Assembly (NCBI RefSeq): GCF_001908275.1
Contig: NZ_CP018620.1
Location: forward strand, 1,798,001-1,862,000
Source: Paenibacillus xylanexedens
Lineage (GTDB): Bacteria; Bacillota; Bacilli; Paenibacillales; Paenibacillaceae
Direction of reading: 5' to 3'
DNA: 64,000 bases
Positions within the stretch are counted from its first letter, which is position 1. Each line of letters starts with the position of its first letter. This document shows, piece by piece, positions 1-9,935 of the stretch. Below the pieces are notes generated by a model, which saw only the letters and a program-made list of their open reading frames with translations, was not told where the DNA came from and did no database searches. Both the position numbers and the translations under genes were made by a program.

Positions 1-2223
1 TTATGTGCACGGTATGCCATCGCTGCTGCGAGGAAAGCGTTAATCGATAGTGGCCTTTCAATAGCACATGCGGATAACATGAAGCATCACGACAGGGAAA
101 AAGGAACAGGTGGAAAGCCATCCGTTCTTCCTGCGCGGATCGGACTCACGCTGGGTACGTGTAACGGTGGAGTTCTATCTTTGGAAGAGCAGTGGAACCT
201 GTCTGAGTTGGACGTTGATCATACGTCCCGGTATCCATTTTATCAGCAGGGCGATGATGCAGCGCGAGTTCTGGGTGTGGCAGGTCCGGTCGCAACGTTA
301 AATACGGCATGTGCTGCGAGTGGCAATGCCATAGGCTATGCAAGTGATCTCATTCGCTGGGGGTATGCCGATGTGATGCTCGCTGGTGGATCTGACCCAT
401 TGTCGCATAGTGTATATGCCGGATTTAATGTACTCCGTGCACTTAATTCACGTCCCTCTTCACCCTTCAGCACCCAATACGGATTGAACTTGGGAGAAGG
501 TGCAGCCTTTGTTGTATTGGAGAGACTGGACGCTGCACTTGAGCGTGATGCAACGATCTATGCTGAATTATGTGCCTATGGGTTGAGTAACGATGCCCAT
601 CATATGACGGCTTCTCACCCGGAAGGTGCAGGTATACAACGTGCAGTGGATATGGCGATCAGCCTTGCCGGAGTATCCAAAACAGATATTGAATACGTAA
701 ACGCACACGGGACTGGAACACAGGCGAATGATCGTGCTGAAATTAGTGGTCTGCAGGGTAGTTTCGGGCCTAATCTGTCGATTCCTATCAGCTCAAGCAA
801 AGCCTATTTTGGTCATACATTAGGTACTTCGGCTGCATTGGAGCTGGTTACCTCGCTCTACGCTATCAGGCAAGGATACGTTCCCGCTACGCTTCATTTT
901 GAAGAAGCTCGCGAAGGCTGCGAGGATGTTGATATCATTCAACATTCGATGCGTCCGATGCGCCCGGAATATATGATCTGCAACAATTCTGGCTTCGGAG
1001 GACACAATGTGTCGCTTGTGCTGCGTACAAATGGAATTGAAGAAGAGCGGTATTCGAGCGTGCAGAATCCTGAACGTGAGAATTCACTTGCAGGGCATCC
1101 GGGCGAGGAAGTCCCCCGACGACGTGTTGTCATTACTGGAGTGGGTGCCGTCAGCAAAGGGGATATCCGTAAGGGGAATGTACTCGGGGCTTTTGGTAAG
1201 GGCACCGAACAGGTAACGGAAACGTCCTTCTTCTCCTTAAAAGATTACGATAAGAGCAAATATGAGCGCAGAATGAACCAGCTCACACAGAATACGATTG
1301 GTGCAGTTCTTGCAGCGATGGAGGATGCAGCGCTGGGCGAGTCTCAGCGGGAACATACGGGCTTTATCTACGGTACAGCACGAGGAAGCACGAGCAGTAT
1401 TTCGAACTTTCTGGAATCTGTATTTGTCAAAGGCCCGGAGTATGCAAGTACGATCTATTTCCCGCATACGGTCATTAATTCCATTGCTGGTCAGACGGCT
1501 GAGAAATTGCAATTTAAGGGATTCAATAGCTCCTTCAGCACAGGAGGCAACGAGGGATTGACTGCCGCATTGTATGCAACGGGCAAGATACGAGAGGGAG
1601 CCCTGACATCTTGTCTGATTGGTGCTGGAGATGAACGATCCCAGCTTGCGGAGGATATCGACCGGGCCAAAGGATTGCAGGACAGCCGTTACGAGATGAC
1701 GGAAGGCAGTGTCTGTATGGTCCTCAGTGATCTGGAAGAAGCTGATCATACGCGATCCGGGATCTATGCGGAATTGAGTGGACTCGGTGTTGCTTCTGGC
1801 GCAGCACAGGACGCTTCGAGACAGAGCGAGGCGTTGATCCGGGCAGTTACCGATGCACTCCATGAAGCTGAAACCAGCATGGGGCAAATGGATCTGATTT
1901 TGCTCAACTCAGTGGGACGTCCCGGTGAATTGGAATTAGAGCAGAGCGCCATATCCTCGATGGGGAAAGGTAAGGTCGCACCATTCGTGCCGATCATGAC
2001 CCTTAATGCGTGCACTGGTTATGGAGAATCGTACAGTTCGATGTTACACCTCGCGGCGGCTGCAGAGCTTGTAAGCCCGGGAGCCATGCACGAACTTGCC
2101 AAAGGTACCTACGCCCATCTGGGCCTGCCTGAGCGATCTTCTGCATACCAGCATATTTTGACCATCAGCTCTACAGTGAATGGCAGTTATTCTGCGGCAA
2201 TCGTCAGTAGCGTCGCTGAGTGA
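1..2223 (+). CDS. Tandem beta-ketoacyl synthase (KS + inactive KS/chain-length-factor-like), 5' end cut by window
   Basis: The frame is open from base 1, so the N-terminus lies outside the window; the ATG at 79 is internal, because the codons before it read as normal KS sequence. Counting from base 1, KS1 has the full condensing triad: Cys104 (TACAAS), His236 (NAHGTGT) and His272 (FGHTLG). A second KS begins near residue 375 (RRVVITGVGAV). There the Cys position is Gly (STGGNEG, residue 516), the first His is Val (NSVG) and the second is Tyr (TGYGE). KS2 is therefore probably a non-catalytic partner like the chain length factor of type II PKS, here fused to its KS. ACP and reductase genes follow at once. 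Role (inferred): decarboxylative chain elongation on the adjacent ACP. Product unknown. Confidence 0.88.
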   Translation, partial: LCARYAIAAARKALIDSGLSIAHADNMKHHDREKGTGGKPSVLPARIGLTLGTCNGGVLSLEEQWNLSELDVDHTSRYPFYQQGDDAARVLGVAGPVATLNTACAASGNAIGYASDLIRWGYADVMLAGGSDPLSHSVYAGFNVLRALNSRPSSPFSTQYGLNLGEGAAFVVLERLDAALERDATIYAELCAYGLSNDAHHMTASHPEGAGIQRAVDMAISLAGVSKTDIEYVNAHGTGTQANDRAEISGLQGSFGPNLSIPISSSKAYFGHTLGTSAALELVTSLYAIRQGYVPATLHFEEAREGCEDVDIIQHSMRPMRPEYMICNNSGFGGHNVSLVLRTNGIEEERYSSVQNPERENSLAGHPGEEVPRRRVVITGVGAVSKGDIRKGNVLGAFGKGTEQVTETSFFSLKDYDKSKYERRMNQLTQNTIGAVLAAMEDAALGESQREHTGFIYGTARGSTSSISNFLESVFVKGPEYASTIYFPHTVINSIAGQTAEKLQFKGFNSSFSTGGNEGLTAALYATGKIREGALTSCLIGAGDERSQLAEDIDRAKGLQDSRYEMTEGSVCMVLSDLEEADHTRSGIYAELSGLGVASGAAQDASRQSEALIRAVTDALHEAETSMGQMDLILLNSVGRPGELELEQSAISSMGKGKVAPFVPIMTLNACTGYGESYSSMLHLAAAAELVSPGAMHELAKGTYAHLGLPERSSAYQHILTISSTVNGSYSAAIVSSVAE

Positions 2224-2260
2224 ACCGTGTTAATTGAAAAATTATAGGAGGCTTACACAT

Positions 2261-2566
2261 ATGACAGTGAATTACGAGGTAGAGATGGATGAGATCAAAC
2301 AGACAATCAAACAAACGTTGTTAATTGATCGGCTCAAACTGGAGGACATCACCGCAGAGGAAATTACGGATGACATGATTTTGTTCGGTGAAGAACTGGG
2401 ACTGGACTCTGTGGAGGCGTTCGAGGTTATGGTTGGTATGGAAGAAATATATGGCGTGATGGTCGAGGACCTTCCCGCGACAGAGTTACAGATCCATCTG
2501 AAAAATGTGCAATCTATTGCCGAACTGATTATGGCCAGAAAGACCAAAGGAACGCGAGGCCAATGA
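2261..2566 (+). CDS. Acyl carrier protein
   Basis: This 101-residue acidic protein has the carrier helix motif GLDSVEAFEVMV; the Ser of DSV is the expected phosphopantetheine attachment site (DSL in classical ACPs). Start chosen at ATG 2261, which has AGGAGG at 2246-2251 with good spacing; the upstream TTG at 2234 would place the ribosome binding site inside the gene. It lies 37 bases after the tandem KS, and its stop overlaps the next start (ATGA at 2563-2566), so the genes are translationally coupled. It is somewhat longer than a fatty-acid ACP (about 77 aa), mainly from an N-terminal extension. It probably carries the chain built by the KS pair. Confidence 0.9.
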   Translation: MTVNYEVEMDEIKQTIKQTLLIDRLKLEDITAEEITDDMILFGEELGLDSVEAFEVMVGMEEIYGVMVEDLPATELQIHLKNVQSIAELIMARKTKGTRGQ

Positions 2567-3306
2567 CCTTTCGTGATCACGTCGTTGTGGTTACAGGGGT
2601 ATCACGGGGCATAGGGCGGGCCATAGCGCTGAGATTTATTGCAGAGGGAGCCATTGTGGCAGGCATTTATGTCAGGGATGACGCTGCAGCGGACCGGCTA
2701 ACAGAAGCGGTGAGTGCAGCAGGCGGACGGATGCGGTTGTTCAAGGGCTCTGTTGCGGACCATGCTTTTGTAGCGGATGTGATGAAAGAGGTATTTGATA
2801 CATTTGGCCGTGTGGATGTCCTGATCAATAATGCCGGAAGATCGAGCGACCAGATGGCACTGCGGATGGAAGAGCAACAGTGGAATGAGGTGCTGGACAC
2901 CAATTATGTTGGTGCCTGTTATTGCTCACAGGAGGCGGTCAGCTACATGGTTCTTCAGGACAGTGGAAGCATTATCAACCTGGTGTCGGTGAGCGGTATA
3001 TATGGGCGGGAAGGTCAAAGCAATTATGCAGCTTCCAAAGGGGCTTTGATGGGGCTGACGAAGTTATATGCCCGCCTCTATGCATCACACAACATTCAGG
3101 TCAGTGCCATCGCACCAGGTATGATTGATACCGAGATGACGGAGGAGGTGTCGCAAGAGAAGCTGAATGATTTTCTGCGCCACACCCTCACCGGAAGGCA
3201 AGGGTCTGCGGAAGAGGTAGCTGAAGCGGTGATATACCTCGCAGGACCTGCGGCACGTTATCATACCGGACAGACATTAAAACTGGATGGCGGCTTTTTG
3301 CGTTAA
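2563..3306 (+). CDS. 3-oxoacyl-[ACP] reductase-like SDR (FabG family)
   Basis: A 247-aa classical short-chain dehydrogenase with the N-terminal cofactor motif TGVSRGIGRA (about residues 11-20), the NNAG strand, the Ser of the VSVSG segment, and the YAASK catalytic Tyr/Lys. The C-terminal TGQTLKLDGG signature is FabG-like. It overlaps the ACP stop by 4 bases, which ties it to that ACP. The likely reaction is NADPH reduction of the beta-ketoacyl-ACP made by the upstream KS. No dehydratase or enoyl reductase is recognisable in the visible part of the operon; those steps may be encoded left of the window. Confidence 0.9.
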   Translation: MTFRDHVVVVTGVSRGIGRAIALRFIAEGAIVAGIYVRDDAAADRLTEAVSAAGGRMRLFKGSVADHAFVADVMKEVFDTFGRVDVLINNAGRSSDQMALRMEEQQWNEVLDTNYVGACYCSQEAVSYMVLQDSGSIINLVSVSGIYGREGQSNYAASKGALMGLTKLYARLYASHNIQVSAIAPGMIDTEMTEEVSQEKLNDFLRHTLTGRQGSAEEVAEAVIYLAGPAARYHTGQTLKLDGGFLR

Positions 3307-3343
3307 GGGCAAACTTGAATTGCAATCAGAGGGAGGGAAGCTA

Positions 3344-4075
3344 ATGAAAACGGCGTATGTGCATCATGCAGAGAGTACAGCTATGCAGATGATGGTTGTA
3401 TATTTGTTACATCGTGGCTTGCAGATTACAGCAAGCTTCGCCACATCAGAACAAGCAGAGCAGTTTCATTCCGATCTGTCTGTGCACGACCAGAAGAACT
3501 GCCGGACTATTGTTGCGCCGGACCTGGGAATGAAGGGAATTGAATCCGTACTGTCAGCATCTGCCGAGCATATGCAGGGGCTCGACTTCTATATTCATGG
3601 CAGTAGCTGGGTGGATGAACTGTCTGAGCTCCAAAGTGATCCGGCGGCTTTTGCTCTAACCAGTCATCGTCAGTTAAGTGAACTCTTTCTATATACCCGT
3701 GCAGCAGGTCATTTTATGGCGCGTAAACAGAATGGACAGATGATCGTGCCCCTACTGGCAGATATGATGCACTATAGTGGATTTCCTTCTTCTCCGGTGT
3801 ATAACCAGGGTGCCCAAGCATATGTCAAAAGCTTCGCCAAAGAGATGACGCCTTTTCGAGTCTCGGTCAATACGTTAACGTTTGGTTACTACCGTATGGA
3901 GAACCACATTAACGCCGGACGAAGTCGCAGGAAGATCTATGATATGTTCACCTTAAAACCTTCTGTGCCTGAATTGGAAGAGCTTGTACAAGGTCTAGGC
4001 CTGTTACTTGATTATGGTCAGGGCATGAGTGGTCAAAATATAACGTGGGGTTACGGTATTCCGTCTGTTCTCTGA
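3344..4075 (+). CDS. Degenerate SDR-fold protein (ketoreductase paralogue lacking catalytic motifs)
   Basis: A 243-aa protein starting at ATG 3344 behind GAGGGAGGGA; earlier in-frame codons overlap the preceding gene and have no good ribosome binding site. The second half aligns by eye with SDRs (the VYNQGAQAYVKSFAKEM helix followed by VSVNTLTFGY), but the glycine-rich TGxxxGIG nucleotide motif is absent and the YxxxK position reads YNQGA, so the catalytic Lys is missing. The conserved Tyr may remain. It could be a structural or regulatory partner of the active reductase, or an enzyme with another activity such as dehydration. Function is not assigned. Confidence 0.6.
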   Translation: MKTAYVHHAESTAMQMMVVYLLHRGLQITASFATSEQAEQFHSDLSVHDQKNCRTIVAPDLGMKGIESVLSASAEHMQGLDFYIHGSSWVDELSELQSDPAAFALTSHRQLSELFLYTRAAGHFMARKQNGQMIVPLLADMMHYSGFPSSPVYNQGAQAYVKSFAKEMTPFRVSVNTLTFGYYRMENHINAGRSRRKIYDMFTLKPSVPELEELVQGLGLLLDYGQGMSGQNITWGYGIPSVL

Positions 4076-4123: not shown

Positions 4124-4339
4124 ATGGGATATCAACAGAATGGAAACGATGCGGAGCAGGAGAACCGCCAGTCCGATGAACTGCTGGAAGAAGAACTGGA
4201 AGAGGTTGTCGGTGGACTGGCGACTGTTTCAATTGCGCGTTGCAAAGTCTGCCACATTCGAATTGCAGTGTACGAGATGAGCGTATGTGCAGCTTGTTTT
4301 CGCAAAACGCAGCTTCCACTTGCAGGAGAAGGGGGCTAA
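4124..4339 (+). CDS. Small peptide with double-glycine leader and two CxxC pairs
   Basis: A 71-aa product from ATG 4124 behind AAAGAGG. The N-terminal 34 residues are strongly acidic and end in LLEEELEEVVGG, a classic double-glycine (bacteriocin/Nif11-like) leader cleavage site. The predicted core after GG is about 37 residues and basic, with Cys at CKVC and, twelve residues later, CAAC; this spacing suits two disulfides or a small zinc ribbon. Stop and next start are only 2 bases apart. No peptidase-containing ABC exporter is visible in the window. Candidate roles: secreted peptide, signalling pheromone or modified RiPP precursor. It could instead be a cytoplasmic zinc-ribbon protein in which the GG is accidental. 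Confidence 0.6.
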   Translation: MGYQQNGNDAEQENRQSDELLEEELEEVVGGLATVSIARCKVCHIRIAVYEMSVCAACFRKTQLPLAGEGG

Positions 4340-4341
4340 CC

Positions 4342-5301
4342 ATGATCAGAAGGTACGACCGGCTGTGCATCTTGCTGTTGTTCATGTTAACCATAGGACT
4401 TATCCTCTCATCCTGTACAAGCGTATCCCGAGACGCTGTATCAACCATAGCAAGTCCGCAGACTGAAACGGCTCCGTCTCGGGCAGCAGAAACGGACATC
4501 ACAGCAGCTAATGCAGTTAAGGGAAGGGAACCAAGAGTTTATACTGCGGAAGAATTAGAAGGATATCCGCAAGATATTCGGGATATTTTGAGCAGGGGCA
4601 AGCTGAGGATTGGATTGAAGGTAGAGGACCGTTATCCGTTCTTTTACACCGATGAAGAAGGGTTACTGCGCGGGAGCGATGTTGAGCTTGCCAACGACAT
4701 CGCTCTTAAACTTGGAGTTAAACCGGAGTATATCCGAACAGCGGATTCTTTCGATGAAGTGATTGATCAGGTGTCTTCCGGGGAGGTGGATGTCGGCATA
4801 TCCAAATTGAGTATCACCCTGGAGCGGGCGAAGCGAGTACTGTTCTCCAATGCGTATCTGCATTTCAAACAAGCACTGCTGATTAACCGCCTTCAACTTG
4901 CGGAGCTCGGCAAAAAAAACGAATTTCCCGATGTGCTAACGCTGCTTCAGCAACGTGGAACACAGATCGGCATTGTTCAAGGCACGTCTTACGTAGGTTT
5001 CACACGTGAGCTCTTCCCCACGCATAAACAGATTGCCTACAAGAATACTTCCGAATTGTTTGATCGTGTGCGGCAAGGCGAAGTGATCGCTGCAGTCTAT
5101 GATGCATTTGAAATTTCACGTTATTTGGATCAAAACCCAGCCTACTCCCTTGACCTTCAATATGTGCAGCTGGAGGATCAGGATGACGATATTGCCATCG
5201 CCGTTGATCCGCGCCGCATGCATCTCCACCAGTGGATCAATACGTATCTTCACATGCAGGAGAAGAACATTCAGCGCTGGCTTGAAAACTATGGCATCTG
5301 A
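4342..5301 (+). CDS. Family 3 extracellular solute-binding lipoprotein
   Basis: A 319-aa protein starting at ATG 4342 behind AGGAGAAGGGGG. It has a basic N-terminus, a hydrophobic stretch and a lipobox ending LSSC near residue 23, so it should be anchored outside the membrane. A low-complexity linker is followed from about residue 75 by the SBP_bac_3 domain: GKLRIGLKVEDRYPFFY, the SDVELANDIALKLG helix, and a GEVDVGISKLSIT segment. Such domains bind amino acids or small peptides for ABC transporters or, when attached to kinases, act as sensors. No permease or ATPase is adjacent; the next gene is a sensor kinase, so a ligand-sensing role is plausible (inference). Confidence 0.82.
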   Translation: MIRRYDRLCILLLFMLTIGLILSSCTSVSRDAVSTIASPQTETAPSRAAETDITAANAVKGREPRVYTAEELEGYPQDIRDILSRGKLRIGLKVEDRYPFFYTDEEGLLRGSDVELANDIALKLGVKPEYIRTADSFDEVIDQVSSGEVDVGISKLSITLERAKRVLFSNAYLHFKQALLINRLQLAELGKKNEFPDVLTLLQQRGTQIGIVQGTSYVGFTRELFPTHKQIAYKNTSELFDRVRQGEVIAAVYDAFEISRYLDQNPAYSLDLQYVQLEDQDDDIAIAVDPRRMHLHQWINTYLHMQEKNIQRWLENYGI

Positions 5302-5389: not shown

Positions 5390-8300
5390 ATGAATAAACG
5401 TACTTCTTTCCTGTATTACATCATCCCTGTTATGCTATTTTTTCTGATTTTTACGGTACTGATCTTGTTCGAATTACCTTCTAATCAGATGAATGCAGAA
5501 GTTCAGGATGGGCGTTTAACGATTACCAGTGAAGCTCTGTCCTCTGGAGAAGGAAGTCGGTTAGATGGCGAGTGGGCATTCTATTGGAAACAATTGCTGG
5601 AGCCCAAGGATTTTGCCAGTGAACGAACCGGTCCGGTAAGTTACGTTAATGTTCCAGAATCTTGGAGGAATTATGAAATCAGTGGGCATAAGCTGGATAA
5701 TACGGGATTCGCCACGTATCGTCTGGTGGTGGATTTACCTGAGCAAGATATAGAGCTGGGATTACTAACCTCAGGGATAACTTCCGCACACCGATTGTGG
5801 ATTAATGGCAAACTGGTATCCGAAAGTGGGATTGTCGGACGAACGTTAAAGGAATCTTCCTCATATAAGGTGCCTGCTCTAATCCGAATGGAGGCAGGGC
5901 AGACCCAAGCTGATATTATTATTCAAGTTTCGAACTATACACATCGAAAAGCGGGTCTGTTTGGCTCTCTAACGATCGGTGAATATAATCAATTGAATCA
6001 ATCCATGAAATACAAAATGGTATCCGAGAGCATGATTATTGGCTGCATGTTGATTATGGGGCTCTACCATATCCTGTTGTATGCATTGTTGCGCAAAAAT
6101 CGGGAGTCTCTGTATTTTGGTCTGATCTGCATTCTGCTGGCCATGAAGAACAGCTCTGATTCCCAGTACATTTTATCAGAGCTTATTCCGGGAATGAGTG
6201 GTGATACGTTCCTTAAAATTGAGTATTTAGGCTTCTTGGGCAGCTCTCCACTTGCTCTACTTTTTTGTTACTCCATTTTCCCCAACGAGATGTCCAAACG
6301 ATTACGTATATTTTGGATTCCAGGGTTGCTGTTCACTTTGTTTATCCTGTTCACACCTACTCAGGTATATACGAAGTTTGCATTGTTCATGCAGGCATAC
6401 GCGATTCTGATCGGGATTGTGATCATTCAAAATGTGGTCCGAGCTGCCATGAAAAAACTTGCTGGGGCACACTGGATGCTGGCAGGTACCATCGTATTCT
6501 TCATTACCGTAGTGAATGATATTTTAATGAATAACGGTATAATTCAAACAGGAATCTATTTCTCATATGGTCTTCTCTTTCTCATTCTTTGTCTGTCGAT
6601 TATTGTATCCACCAAATTTTCCAATGCCATGAAAACCAATGAACGTTTATCTTCGCGCCTGCTTGAATTGGATCGGGTAAAAGATGAGTTTCTGGCCAAT
6701 ACCTCCCACGAGCTTCGTACACCGCTCAACGGAATTATCGGGCTTACGCAGTCGTTGCTACACAGCATGGATGACCGGTTGGAAGATAACCAGCGAATGC
6801 ATCTGAACATGATCGTCTCAAGTGGTCAACGTATGTCTTTTCTGATTAACGATATTCTGGATTATGCACTTCTTAAAAATAACGATGTACGTCTGAATCG
6901 AACCAAAATAAACCTACACCAATTGGTTCAGGTGGTCCTCACCGTGGTTAAACCGCTCATTACTGGTAGGGATCTTCTATTACACAATCGAATTGATCCC
7001 CATTTTCCACCGATCGAAGCAGATGAGAATCGAATGCAGCAAATTTTGTTTAATCTGGTCGGCAATGCGATCAAGTACACACCATCGGGTCATATCGTGA
7101 TTCGTGCACAGATTGTGCAGGGTGATGTGGAAATTCAGGTAGAGGATACAGGGATTGGCATACCGGAGGATAAATTTGCAATGATTTTCAATCCATTCGA
7201 AAAGCTGGAATCCATTGATAACACGGGTACCGGACTTGGACTAAAAATCACCAAGCAACTTGTCGAGCTGCATGGAGGAGAGATTAAAGTACAGTCGAAA
7301 GTGAATCAAGGCTCCCTTTTCTCGTTCACCATCAGGCAGCATAAGAAGAATGTTCCAACTGCGCTACCGGATAAGCAAAACAATGAATTCATTCAGAACG
7401 GCGTAAGCACCCTTCGTTCTGTTGCAGAAGCTAAGGCAGCAAGTTCACATGCTCTTAATAGGGAAGTCAGTTCCGCGAAAGAATCGGAGATCCAACCTTA
7501 TCGTGTATTAATTGTGGACGATGAGCCCGTTAACCTGCAGGTGGTGATTCAGCAGCTTGCACCACTGGCATGTGTGTTTGAAATTGCGAACAGTGGCACT
7601 GAAGTGCTAGCGCGTATGAATGAGTTGCAGAATTTCGATCTGGTGATCACGGATATGATGATGGTTGGCATGTCGGGATATGAACTATGCGGATTGATCA
7701 GGGAGCGCTACAGTCTGATTGAGTTACCTATTCTAATTATGACAGCAAGTAATCGAGATGATACAATTACAGCTTGTTTTGCCGCCGGAGCCAATGATTA
7801 TATATCAAAACCGATTGGACGTAATGAACTCATAAGCCGTGTACGCACACTGTTGTTGTTAAAAAGGTCTGCTCAGGAGCTGAGTCTGAACGCACAGCAG
7901 CTTGAAGAGTTGAATCAGCAGTTATCCGAGTTAAATACCAACCTGGAGCATCGTATTCAGAATCGTACAGTAGAGCTGGAGCAGAAAAATAAAGATATGG
8001 GCCGTCTGGAATTGTCACGCAGACGATTGCTGAGCGATATATCGCATGAACTGCGCACACCGATGACTGCGATTCAGGGTTATGTGGAGGCAATTGTATC
8101 CGGATTGGTGGATAATGAAGAGGATCAAAAAGTATATCTGCAAATGGTCTTAGTGAAGGCGCTGGGGCTGAATCGTCTCATTCACGATCTATTCGAGTTG
8201 TCCCGACTGGAGTCGGGCAAGTCTGAAATGATCTTTATCATGATGAGCTTGCAGGAGTTAATGGATACCATTCAGGACAAATTCAGGCTGGACATCGCAC

Positions 8301-8737
8301 GTGCTGACATGAGCTACGAGTTTCAGATGAACATTACGACTGCTCAGCGAAGTGATTATCAAGTCGTGATTGATATGGATCGGATTACTCAGGTGTTGAC
8401 CAATCTGGTGTTTAACGCGATTCAGCATACAGGTGCAGGTGGAATGATTCGTCTTCAGTGTTCCATTGAGGAATGGGAAAATGACGGTGATTCTCCAGGA
8501 CGACTTACCATCCGTGTGGAGGACAATGGAGCGGGTATTATGGAAGAGTCACTGCCATTTGTATTTGATCGCTTTTTCCGTGAGAAACATGATCGGCATG
8601 TGGTTCAGGGCAGTGGTATTGGACTTGCGATTGCGAAGGAAATTATTCAGTATCATGATGGAAACATACACGTAGAAAGTGAAGTCGGAAAAGGGAGTTC
8701 TTTTTATTTCACGCTGCCTCTGTATGTTCTGGATTAG
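5390..8737 (+). CDS. Large hybrid sensor kinase: 7TMR-DISM sensor - HK - receiver - second HK
   Basis: A 1115-aa membrane protein. Residues 10-28 form a membrane segment, followed by an extracellular beta-rich domain with a DISM-type carbohydrate/ligand fold (RLWINGKLVSESG). Seven membrane segments lie between about 205 and 410. Then come HisKA/HATPase core 1 (TSHELRTPL with His near 440; GTGLGLKITK), a receiver domain (VDDEP near 707, Asp in VITDMMM near 755, Lys in ISKPI), a coiled coil around 825-870, and a complete second core (ISHELRTPM with His near 885; VEDNGAGI, GSGIGLAIAKEI). No DNA-binding output domain is present, so a separate regulator must exist. Its position behind the peptide and binding-lipoprotein genes suggests it senses an extracellular ligand. 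Confidence 0.88.
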   Translation: MNKRTSFLYYIIPVMLFFLIFTVLILFELPSNQMNAEVQDGRLTITSEALSSGEGSRLDGEWAFYWKQLLEPKDFASERTGPVSYVNVPESWRNYEISGHKLDNTGFATYRLVVDLPEQDIELGLLTSGITSAHRLWINGKLVSESGIVGRTLKESSSYKVPALIRMEAGQTQADIIIQVSNYTHRKAGLFGSLTIGEYNQLNQSMKYKMVSESMIIGCMLIMGLYHILLYALLRKNRESLYFGLICILLAMKNSSDSQYILSELIPGMSGDTFLKIEYLGFLGSSPLALLFCYSIFPNEMSKRLRIFWIPGLLFTLFILFTPTQVYTKFALFMQAYAILIGIVIIQNVVRAAMKKLAGAHWMLAGTIVFFITVVNDILMNNGIIQTGIYFSYGLLFLILCLSIIVSTKFSNAMKTNERLSSRLLELDRVKDEFLANTSHELRTPLNGIIGLTQSLLHSMDDRLEDNQRMHLNMIVSSGQRMSFLINDILDYALLKNNDVRLNRTKINLHQLVQVVLTVVKPLITGRDLLLHNRIDPHFPPIEADENRMQQILFNLVGNAIKYTPSGHIVIRAQIVQGDVEIQVEDTGIGIPEDKFAMIFNPFEKLESIDNTGTGLGLKITKQLVELHGGEIKVQSKVNQGSLFSFTIRQHKKNVPTALPDKQNNEFIQNGVSTLRSVAEAKAASSHALNREVSSAKESEIQPYRVLIVDDEPVNLQVVIQQLAPLACVFEIANSGTEVLARMNELQNFDLVITDMMMVGMSGYELCGLIRERYSLIELPILIMTASNRDDTITACFAAGANDYISKPIGRNELISRVRTLLLLKRSAQELSLNAQQLEELNQQLSELNTNLEHRIQNRTVELEQKNKDMGRLELSRRRLLSDISHELRTPMTAIQGYVEAIVSGLVDNEEDQKVYLQMVLVKALGLNRLIHDLFELSRLESGKSEMIFIMMSLQELMDTIQDKFRLDIARADMSYEFQMNITTAQRSDYQVVIDMDRITQVLTNLVFNAIQHTGAGGMIRLQCSIEEWENDGDSPGRLTIRVEDNGAGIMEESLPFVFDRFFREKHDRHVVQGSGIGLAIAKEIIQYHDGNIHVESEVGKGSSFYFTLPLYVLD

Positions 8738-8864: not shown

Positions 8865-9863
8865 TCAATTCGATGATGATGATGATGAAGAAGCGGCAGC
8901 AGCCGATGCTGCGGCAGTTGCGGCCATGGCTGCTTGTTGAGCGATGATAATATTTGTGATACTGGTTGAGATTGCTGTCGTAAGCACACCGTTCCGCAGA
9001 TTCTCCACATGTTGAATGGCTACCAGAGCAGACGAGAACAGGAGCAACTCCTGTTTGTCGATTGACCAGGCACCGAAGCCTTTTTGAGTCCGTAACCAGT
9101 CATTTGTTTCTGCGACTTCATCCACTAATGACTCTCTGTCCGAAGGCAGTAGAGAAAGTATCCCGAGAGATGGTAATGTGTACGTTTTGTCCATTCGAAG
9201 ATCCCTTTTGCGAAAAGCTTCATTTAAAGCAATCACACGAGCACCTGCATCCGGGGGATCATCTCCAAGAACCAGGACCTGTGTTAACGCCTGCACACTA
9301 TTTCTGGAAGAGAACTCTGGTTTTAATTCCCCGTAGAGTTGTTCCATGCGTGCCACACCAGTATCTACGTTGAGATCGGAAAGGGCTAACATGGCAGCGA
9401 AAATGTAGTCATCCTGTCCAGTGAGGAAGCGATGCTCTGCTTTCATGCCATCATAAAATGATTTGGCTCGCTCCACCGTAGGTTGAAACTGGTCAGGTGA
9501 TGTCTGAGTAGCGATCTGATAGGCGGCAATAACCAGATAATCGGAGTTGCGGAATTTGATCTCTTTCATCAAGTCATAGACATGCAAGGTGTCTGCCAGT
9601 CTCGTCTCTTCATCCGTTGTAAGGGAGAGCATGGCAGCAATGCTAATGGCCGAATTACCTCTGAATGCAGAGAAGAGTTTTGTGTTTTGCTTAATCAACT
9701 CATGGCTTTGAAGAATAGCTTCCCCATCGGCTGTTTTATTCTCCGCTGCATAGAGCAGGGCAACCAGACGTTGCATCATCGCATGTTGCCATTTAAACGA
9801 CTTCTTGATGATCTGGGTGTTGGAAACAAATAATTCAACTCGTTCTGCATGATGCTGCTGCAT
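8865..9863 (-). CDS. DUF4003-like protein with Ala/Ser-rich tail
   Basis: A cytoplasmic alpha-helical protein of about 332 aa. Start placed at ATG 9863, which has GGAGG seven bases upstream; the in-frame GTG at 9869 sits almost on the ribosome binding site. The body resembles the DUF4003 family common in Bacilli (regular helical pairs, LLYAAENK near the N-terminus, FGAWSIDKQELLLFSS near the C-terminus). Function of the family is unknown. The last 30 residues are an AAxAA run and then seven serines, coded by repeated TCA/TCT/TCC codons: a simple-sequence tail likely to vary in length between strains. It converges on the hybrid kinase gene. Confidence 0.6.
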   Translation of the reverse strand: MQQHHAERVELFVSNTQIIKKSFKWQHAMMQRLVALLYAAENKTADGEAILQSHELIKQNTKLFSAFRGNSAISIAAMLSLTTDEETRLADTLHVYDLMKEIKFRNSDYLVIAAYQIATQTSPDQFQPTVERAKSFYDGMKAEHRFLTGQDDYIFAAMLALSDLNVDTGVARMEQLYGELKPEFSSRNSVQALTQVLVLGDDPPDAGARVIALNEAFRKRDLRMDKTYTLPSLGILSLLPSDRESLVDEVAETNDWLRTQKGFGAWSIDKQELLLFSSALVAIQHVENLRNGVLTTAISTSITNIIIAQQAAMAATAAASAAAASSSSSSSN

Positions 9864-9935
9864 AGGCACACCTCCATATTCACTGTTATTCTATAATACC
9901 CTTCCAGCTTCCTTCATTCCGTCGGTGTAAACAGA

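Follow-up and report, generated by a model that had tools for sequence, protein, structure and literature searches.

What a 71-aa peptide with an apparent double-glycine leader and a cysteine-rich core does within an operon of PKS-like genes, immediately before a solute-binding lipoprotein, is the question raised by this locus. The answer proposed here, to which we assign a probability of about 0.42, is that the open reading frame (ORF) for this Cys peptide would belong to an NHLP (proteusin) cluster with its own fatty-acid/polyketide module, and that an exported knuckle peptide would serve the cluster's own signalling circuit, beside a separate, acylated NHLP product. The argument builds on the peptide itself, the leader match, the exporter, the gene order and the co-occurrence of certain genes, all of which are read from sequence. 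By the window is meant the whole stretch of 64 kb that was analysed.

The ORF (4124–4339, + strand) starts with ATG, has AAAGAGG upstream and ends with a stop codon at 4337–4339. On the basis of the ORF translation, the alignment of homologues and a leader motif, residues 1–31 are assigned to the leader (4124–4216, +), which ends ELLEEELEEVVGG; residues 32–71 and the stop codon (4217–4339, +) form the core, as judged from the alignment, a codon test and the likeness to NinF/S14 knuckles. With GG at residues 30–31, the sequence reads MGYQQNGNDAEQENRQSDELLEEELEEVVGG up to the predicted cut and LATVSIARCKVCHIRIAVYEMSVCAACFRKTQLPLAGEGG after it. The leader end, DELLEEELEEVVGG, is to be compared with that of the NHLP precursor, DELTETELESVAGG, and with those of two distant relatives of the Cys peptide, ELTEDELEEVVGG and DELTEDELEVVVGG. 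A 13-residue motif composed from the leaders of the Cys peptide and of the NHLP precursor was scanned against 898,505 bases, a redundant set consisting mostly of chosen cluster loci; the 42 distinct matches, sorted by eye, comprise 12 Cys peptides, 28 precursors in NHLP-exporter clusters and two short GG precursors (L056, G485), and a residue-shuffled control (11,218 open frames, 20 passes) gave 0.0 matches per pass. The single match in the window is the Cys peptide. In nine of ten strong-match genomes its profile matched, with leader columns alone, the cluster's own NHLP precursor as well (E 0.009–0.10); G514 is the tenth. Furthermore, the leader has before its GG the acidic/Leu/Val pattern described for NHLP/N11P leaders (PMC2887384, as excerpted), and in a PDB profile search the leader half of the profile found a Nif11 leader at E 0.10 and, at E 1.0, an NHLP leader chimera.

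A C39-peptidase ABC exporter, which the initial annotation had proposed to look for on the left, is encoded there. The 18 kb left of the window hold, in this order, an OmpR-type regulator (encoded on the opposite strand and divergently from the first gene of the operon, with REC and Trans_reg_C domains), Peripla_BP_6, NHLM HlyD, NHLM ABC1, NHLM ABC2, the NHLP precursor, a dicarboxylate-type symporter and a 296-aa GNAT; HlyD, ABC1 and ABC2 all score above their NCBIfam cut-offs, and ABC1, which carries the C39 peptidase domain, matches TIGR03796 with 1096.7 bits (cut-off 853.3). Since the leader ends of the Cys peptide and the NHLP precursor match, both are very probably cut by one and the same exporter. 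That the Cys peptide is processed and exported by the NHLM exporter, the C39 domain cutting after VVGG, is highly probable, and the exported core of about 40 residues would probably be zinc-binding or disulfide-linked.

The PKS-like operon is likewise real; the left edge of the window falls inside its KS-KS gene, so that only the right half lies within. The KS-KS fusion (819-aa translation; gene start left of the window, at L007:17764) is present with its right 2223 bases (1–2223, +), and matches Pfam ketoacyl-synt and Ketoacyl-synt_C; by eye, the first half keeps the Cys-His-His motifs, and the second, without them, looks degenerate and chain-length-factor-like. There follow an acyl carrier protein (2234–2566, +; PF00550 23.7 bits, cut-off 20.8), a FabG-like beta-ketoacyl reductase (2563–3306, +; PF13561 188.6 bits, and TIGR01830 241.5 bits, below the cut-off of 297.75) and a second SDR-like protein (3287–4075, +; PF13561 25.0 bits, below the cut-off of 27), the cofactor and YxxxK motifs of which look degenerate by eye. 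PF13561, the title of which names an enoyl reductase, is taken here as a general SDR family, and the second SDR-like protein may have a reducing role; it is found in every tabulated KS-KS cluster, including two without NHLP genes. After the Cys peptide comes an SBP3 lipoprotein resembling amino-acid-binding proteins (4342–5301, +; PF00497 73.4 bits, cut-off 26.4), with an LILSSC lipobox (by eye) and an ATG at 4342 that confirms the spacing of 2 bases from the peptide's stop codon, and then a hybrid histidine kinase of 1115 aa (5390–8737, +), in which Pfam delineates an N-terminal region, 7TMR-DISM, HisKA-HATPase, REC and a second HisKA-HATPase. A DUF4003 protein (8865–9869, −) adjoins the cluster, an arrangement otherwise seen in its closest relatives only. 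As had been claimed, the lipoprotein is without an ABC permease partner: gene-by-gene annotation of the conserved order found none. A strong hairpin lies 3′ of the NHLP precursor gene at two loci (L007:15440–15530 and L009:9250–9340; z −5.6 and −4.3), being kept, with altered sequence, in a relative; at the junction of the Cys peptide and SBP3 there is none (z +1.2). Scans for promoter-like sites (7 and 15, vs shuffle means of 12.5 and 16.5) and terminator-like sites (4 and 9, vs 5.1 and 8.9) returned about as many as the shuffles, or fewer, and were of no use.

The double-glycine ORF proves to be a genuine and conserved gene. A single-sequence search gave eight protein clusters, one of which (97% identical) is the window's own peptide or its nearest kin, and a profile search gave 19 among the 7989 candidates sharing most words; the close named matches are from Paenibacillus species. 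All 21 aligned homologue rows have the GG and the four Cys; they span 67–117 residues and vary in the region before the GG motif. The cysteines, at residues 40, 43, 55 and 58, form CxxC-x11-CxxC, so that the two CxxC pairs named in the initial annotation stand and the spacing of 12 given there becomes 11. In the 29-codon core pN is 0.00–0.37 vs a pS of 0.10–0.90 (15 comparisons with the window, 13 genomes), that is, the core is under strong purifying selection, and this, together with the homologue clusters, rules out a random ORF. The same gene order was found, within their flanks, at seven of seven loci from a contig scan, and agrees in other genera and in a second GTDB family, so that the gene order, for homologues of which the initial annotation had proposed a search, is conserved across two families. 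Searches of open-licence PMC papers, covering titles and the opening of abstracts, found no description of this order; two Paenibacillus genome-mining papers mention proteusin clusters (PMC10731318, PMC7829367), and the excerpts of these do not describe the Cys peptide. Fifteen weaker profile matches (E 0.002–0.1) were translated; apart from L034 and L047 they were read as chance or, where they fell in the leader columns, as other GG precursors, and L047 is a long zinc-ribbon protein unrelated to the Cys peptide. L034, near position 1501 (genome G083), is a separate short ORF in which a CxxC comes after DRLKEEDLEQVSGG and His residues further on, another combination of GG with a zinc-finger-like part; the 20 kb around it (L066) contain no relative of the cluster's transporter or enzyme genes.

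Against the NinF knuckle family PF05810 (cut-off 27.5 bits) the window peptide scores 20.6 bits; among five homologues scanned, P0008 passes with 42.0 bits, P0013 (25.0) and P0022 (19.6) fall below and P0021 and P0023 give no match. P0008 and P0013 are annotated as NinF in the protein database, and one source labels P0022 a 'YhfH family protein'. The core half of the peptide profile finds zinc knuckles of the S14 type among PDB entries (best E 0.022, with many S14 entries below), the best-ranked match being an unrelated hypothetical protein (E 0.012). An AlphaFold2 model, weak overall (mean pLDDT 65) and with 83–84 over residues 41–60, places a short helix after the second CxxC; a Foldseek search with it returned nothing at E ≤ 0.001, the best match being chain N of a 30S subunit (E 0.84), which we take to be S14. 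The core appears, from these profile matches, to be knuckle-like and to resemble NinF/S14 zinc knuckles, the model giving weak structural support for an S14-like fold, and a metal-binding knuckle is reasonably likely.

Such knuckles are better known from cytoplasmic proteins, which counts against an exported signal, and the peptide might instead be an internal zinc-knuckle protein that docks on the exporter or the kinase, its GG tail being a substrate mimic or flux sensor. The NinF scores, the S14 alignment and the YhfH label of its relatives agree with that, as does a homologue in G514 (L063, reverse strand): this protein of 66 aa (CKRCGKRIAVSGMMVCAECFRVQN) keeps the Cys core without GG, is encoded (227–427) directly before a kinase (437–3865) that is 41–43% identical to the window kinase, with no SBP3 between them, and so agrees with a function that needs no export. 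The G514 assembly, 70% complete, yielded no NHLM exporter. The initial annotation had named homologues without GG, and a cytoplasmic zinc-ribbon role of the cysteines, as telling against its idea; of the former this one was found, vs GG in 21 of 21 aligned rows, and on the latter bears the one homologue above the NinF cut-off. The invariant GG, which sits within a full exporter-recognition motif, argues against a cytoplasmic regulator, and we consider that role quite unlikely.

The main product would be separate from the Cys peptide. The NHLP precursor, which at 50.8 bits falls just below the TIGR03793 cut-off of 50.9, has the core start SKxGAxxFF, found in at least one precursor per cluster in 19 of 19 KS-KS clusters with NHLP genes; in the same 19 of 19 tabulated clusters a GNAT accompanies the precursor. 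Lys occupies core position 2 in 19 of the 21 distinct precursor cores found by the leader motif. One cluster (G045, L009:7980–9257) has three tandem NHLP precursors, one without the Lys2 core; simpler NHLP-exporter clusters without a KS module occur in G299 (L068; several NHLP precursors and a distant GNAT, 26%) and G181 (L067; no GNAT relative found in 20 kb). In the excerpted account of NpuN, a tandem GNAT, this enzyme acylates Lys1 of the precursor NpuA (PMC13060382), and by analogy Lys2 of the NHLP core may reasonably be expected to be acylated by the 296-aa GNAT. As the Pfam match covers only the first third of the latter, a tandem fold is a guess, and a PDB sequence search with it gave nothing at E ≤ 0.01. 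The acyl chain would be built by KS-KS, ACP and FabG and, since the conserved order has a FabG but no recognisable dehydratase, might be a 3-hydroxyacyl chain, which is also a guess. The cluster thus described probably makes a fatty-acid-decorated peptide.

It had been suggested that the Cys peptide could be a ribosomal peptide which the PKS-like enzymes modify or lipidate. The lipid-making module is indeed in the operon, and peptide, GNAT and KS module in one operon would agree with the peptide being itself the GNAT substrate, a lipidated RiPP; however, the Lys of its CKxC is S, R, T or A in some of the 21 rows, five KS-GNAT-NHLP clusters lack the peptide altogether, and the NHLP core has the frequent Lys2 beside GG that recalls the Lys1 acylated in NpuA (PMC13060382, as excerpted). 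The Cys peptide as main product is accordingly set aside as a leading idea and is very improbable as a GNAT substrate; the NHLP precursor is the likelier lipidated product.

The clusters without the peptide define a sister subtype. In a family scan of 394 genomes, with at most 14 candidates per genome scored, strong matches to the Cys peptide were found in 11, with weak ones in G365 (internal stop) and G083, and KS-KS matches above 1000 bits occur in exactly the same 11 genomes. Seven weaker KS-KS matches were opened: five are NHLP-GNAT-KS clusters of the sister subtype (G368, G378, G176, G165, G371), and two (G018, G210) belong to clusters that lack NHLP genes. GG peptide, kinase and regulator, the trio of three-component pheromone systems, are found together in 13 of 13 peptide-subtype clusters with the left flank covered (a count in which the G045 regulator is cut by the region end and P. 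oenotherae L017, its left flank unreached, is left out), and in none of the five sister clusters are peptide, kinase or regulator present. There, a holo-ACP synthase occupies the peptide's place (L081–L084, L086; Pfam ACPS 59.7 bits for the G371 copy, to which the others are 67–71% identical), and in two of the sister clusters a different kinase lies upstream (28–29% identity over 22–26% of the query). Within the peptide subtype, G516 (L061) has both the Cys peptide and a holo-ACP synthase, and G347 (L064) a holo-ACP synthase copy that looks diverged by eye. In trees of ABC1 (ignoring the P. oenotherae row, where the wrong ABC gene was matched) and of KS-KS each subtype is one clade, and the co-occurrence of peptide, kinase and regulator therefore amounts to one transition rather than repeated evidence.

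The kinase and regulator themselves are likely a cognate pair, because in G439 (L122, G439:C1:1366000-1385999) they stand side by side and divergent (74–76% and 90%, respectively) with no Cys peptide, exporter, KS or other cluster gene in the 20 kb around them. A close kinase occurs in 12 family genomes, namely the 11 with the Cys peptide and G439, and as the G439 kinase branches within the peptide subtype in the tree, the simplest history is the loss of everything between kinase and regulator; the pair can thus persist without the peptide, and G439 is a possible listener strain. The outer, N-terminal region of the kinase is its most divergent part in nine of 11 comparisons with the window (in G516 37% vs 58% for the first kinase domain, in G439 65.9% vs 88.8%), the exceptions being the near-identical L012, and G514.

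Three features speak for a signalling peptide: its export leader, its association with kinase and regulator, and the neighbouring gene of receptor type. The Cys peptide would be the regulatory part of the cluster, most likely read outside the cell by the 7TMR-DISM hybrid kinase, possibly together with SBP3; the kinase would signal to the OmpR-type regulator, and the peptide may switch the cluster on. That the kinase reads the peptide remains a tentative proposal, with somewhat less than an even chance. Of the signal-and-receptor pair in the initial annotation, the signal half gains from the link to a membrane sensor kinase, whereas SBP3 is weakened as a receptor and as an obligate partner, being present in four of the five sister clusters, all without the Cys peptide, and absent from the G514 knuckle-kinase pair; its sequence relatives in the PDB are mostly amino-acid-binding proteins and cyclohexadienyl dehydratases. 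Against signalling stand mainly the homologue without GG, the kinase-regulator pair that lacks the peptide and the resemblance of the core to NinF. Many peptide pheromones diversify, and the conservation of this core counts against a pheromone role.

The exported core could also be an effector and not a signal, a second component secreted to work alongside the lipopeptide, whether bacteriocin-like or metal-binding. It shares leader type and exporter with the product precursor, and the strong purifying selection on the core would suit such a function; on the other hand, its presence tracks kinase and regulator (as one transition), it adjoins receptor-type genes without the hairpin found after the precursor gene, and PF10439 (Bacteriocin_IIc, class IIc double-glycine) gives only 14.0 bits vs a cut-off of 27.1. 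An effector role is accordingly unlikely. The signalling reading in its strongest form, in which a folded, metal-binding knuckle mini-domain exported by the NHLM system is sensed by the 7TMR-DISM kinase, with or without SBP3 as co-receptor, and drives lipopeptide production as a new kind of peptide signal, is itself rather unlikely. If true, NHLP clusters would gain a dedicated inducer, a type-II-like fatty-acid module would be coupled to a ribosomal peptide, a zinc-finger-like domain would have been reused as a secreted signal, and sensor-only strains such as G439 would be listeners. The peptide-less sister subtype and the G439 sensor-only locus serve as natural controls, by which the idea can be tested directly.

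In comparison with known systems, the cluster shares with the NHLP/proteusin clusters with NHLM exporters, as excerpted from PMC2887384, the C39 ABC exporter, the second ABC protein, HlyD and the NHLP precursor, as well as the pattern before GG; unlike theirs, the Cys peptide is without the nitrile-hydratase-like leader part (no TIGR03793 match at E ≤ 0.1), of which it keeps the last 13 or so residues only, and the conserved order contains no LanM or TOMM enzyme. The GNAT-lipidated RiPPs, selidamides and nostolysamides, have in the excerpts of PMC9505594 and PMC13060382 an NHLP-type precursor, a GNAT, an exporter and a Lys next to GG, as found here; a dedicated KS-KS/ACP/FabG module is the difference, the fatty acid of phaeornamide coming from primary metabolism (PMC9505594), and NpuN is a tandem GNAT (PMC13060382) whereas Pfam covers one third of the present enzyme. 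With the zinc knuckles of NinF and ribosomal S14 the core has in common CxxC-x11/12-CxxC, the modelled short helix and, in P0008, a score above the NinF cut-off, and it differs from them by the GG export leader and, in the window peptide, by a score below that cut-off. The closest regulatory parallel drawn is three-component bacteriocin regulation, as in the gallocin system GSP/BlpH/BlpR (excerpts of PMC8545106), in which a secreted peptide (here a predicted one), a kinase and a regulator likewise go with a cluster for a peptide product. The LytTR domain is found in BlpR, whereas the regulator here is OmpR-type; what sets the present locus apart is the conserved four-Cys knuckle peptide, the 7TMR-DISM hybrid kinase and the SBP3 lipoprotein between the two.
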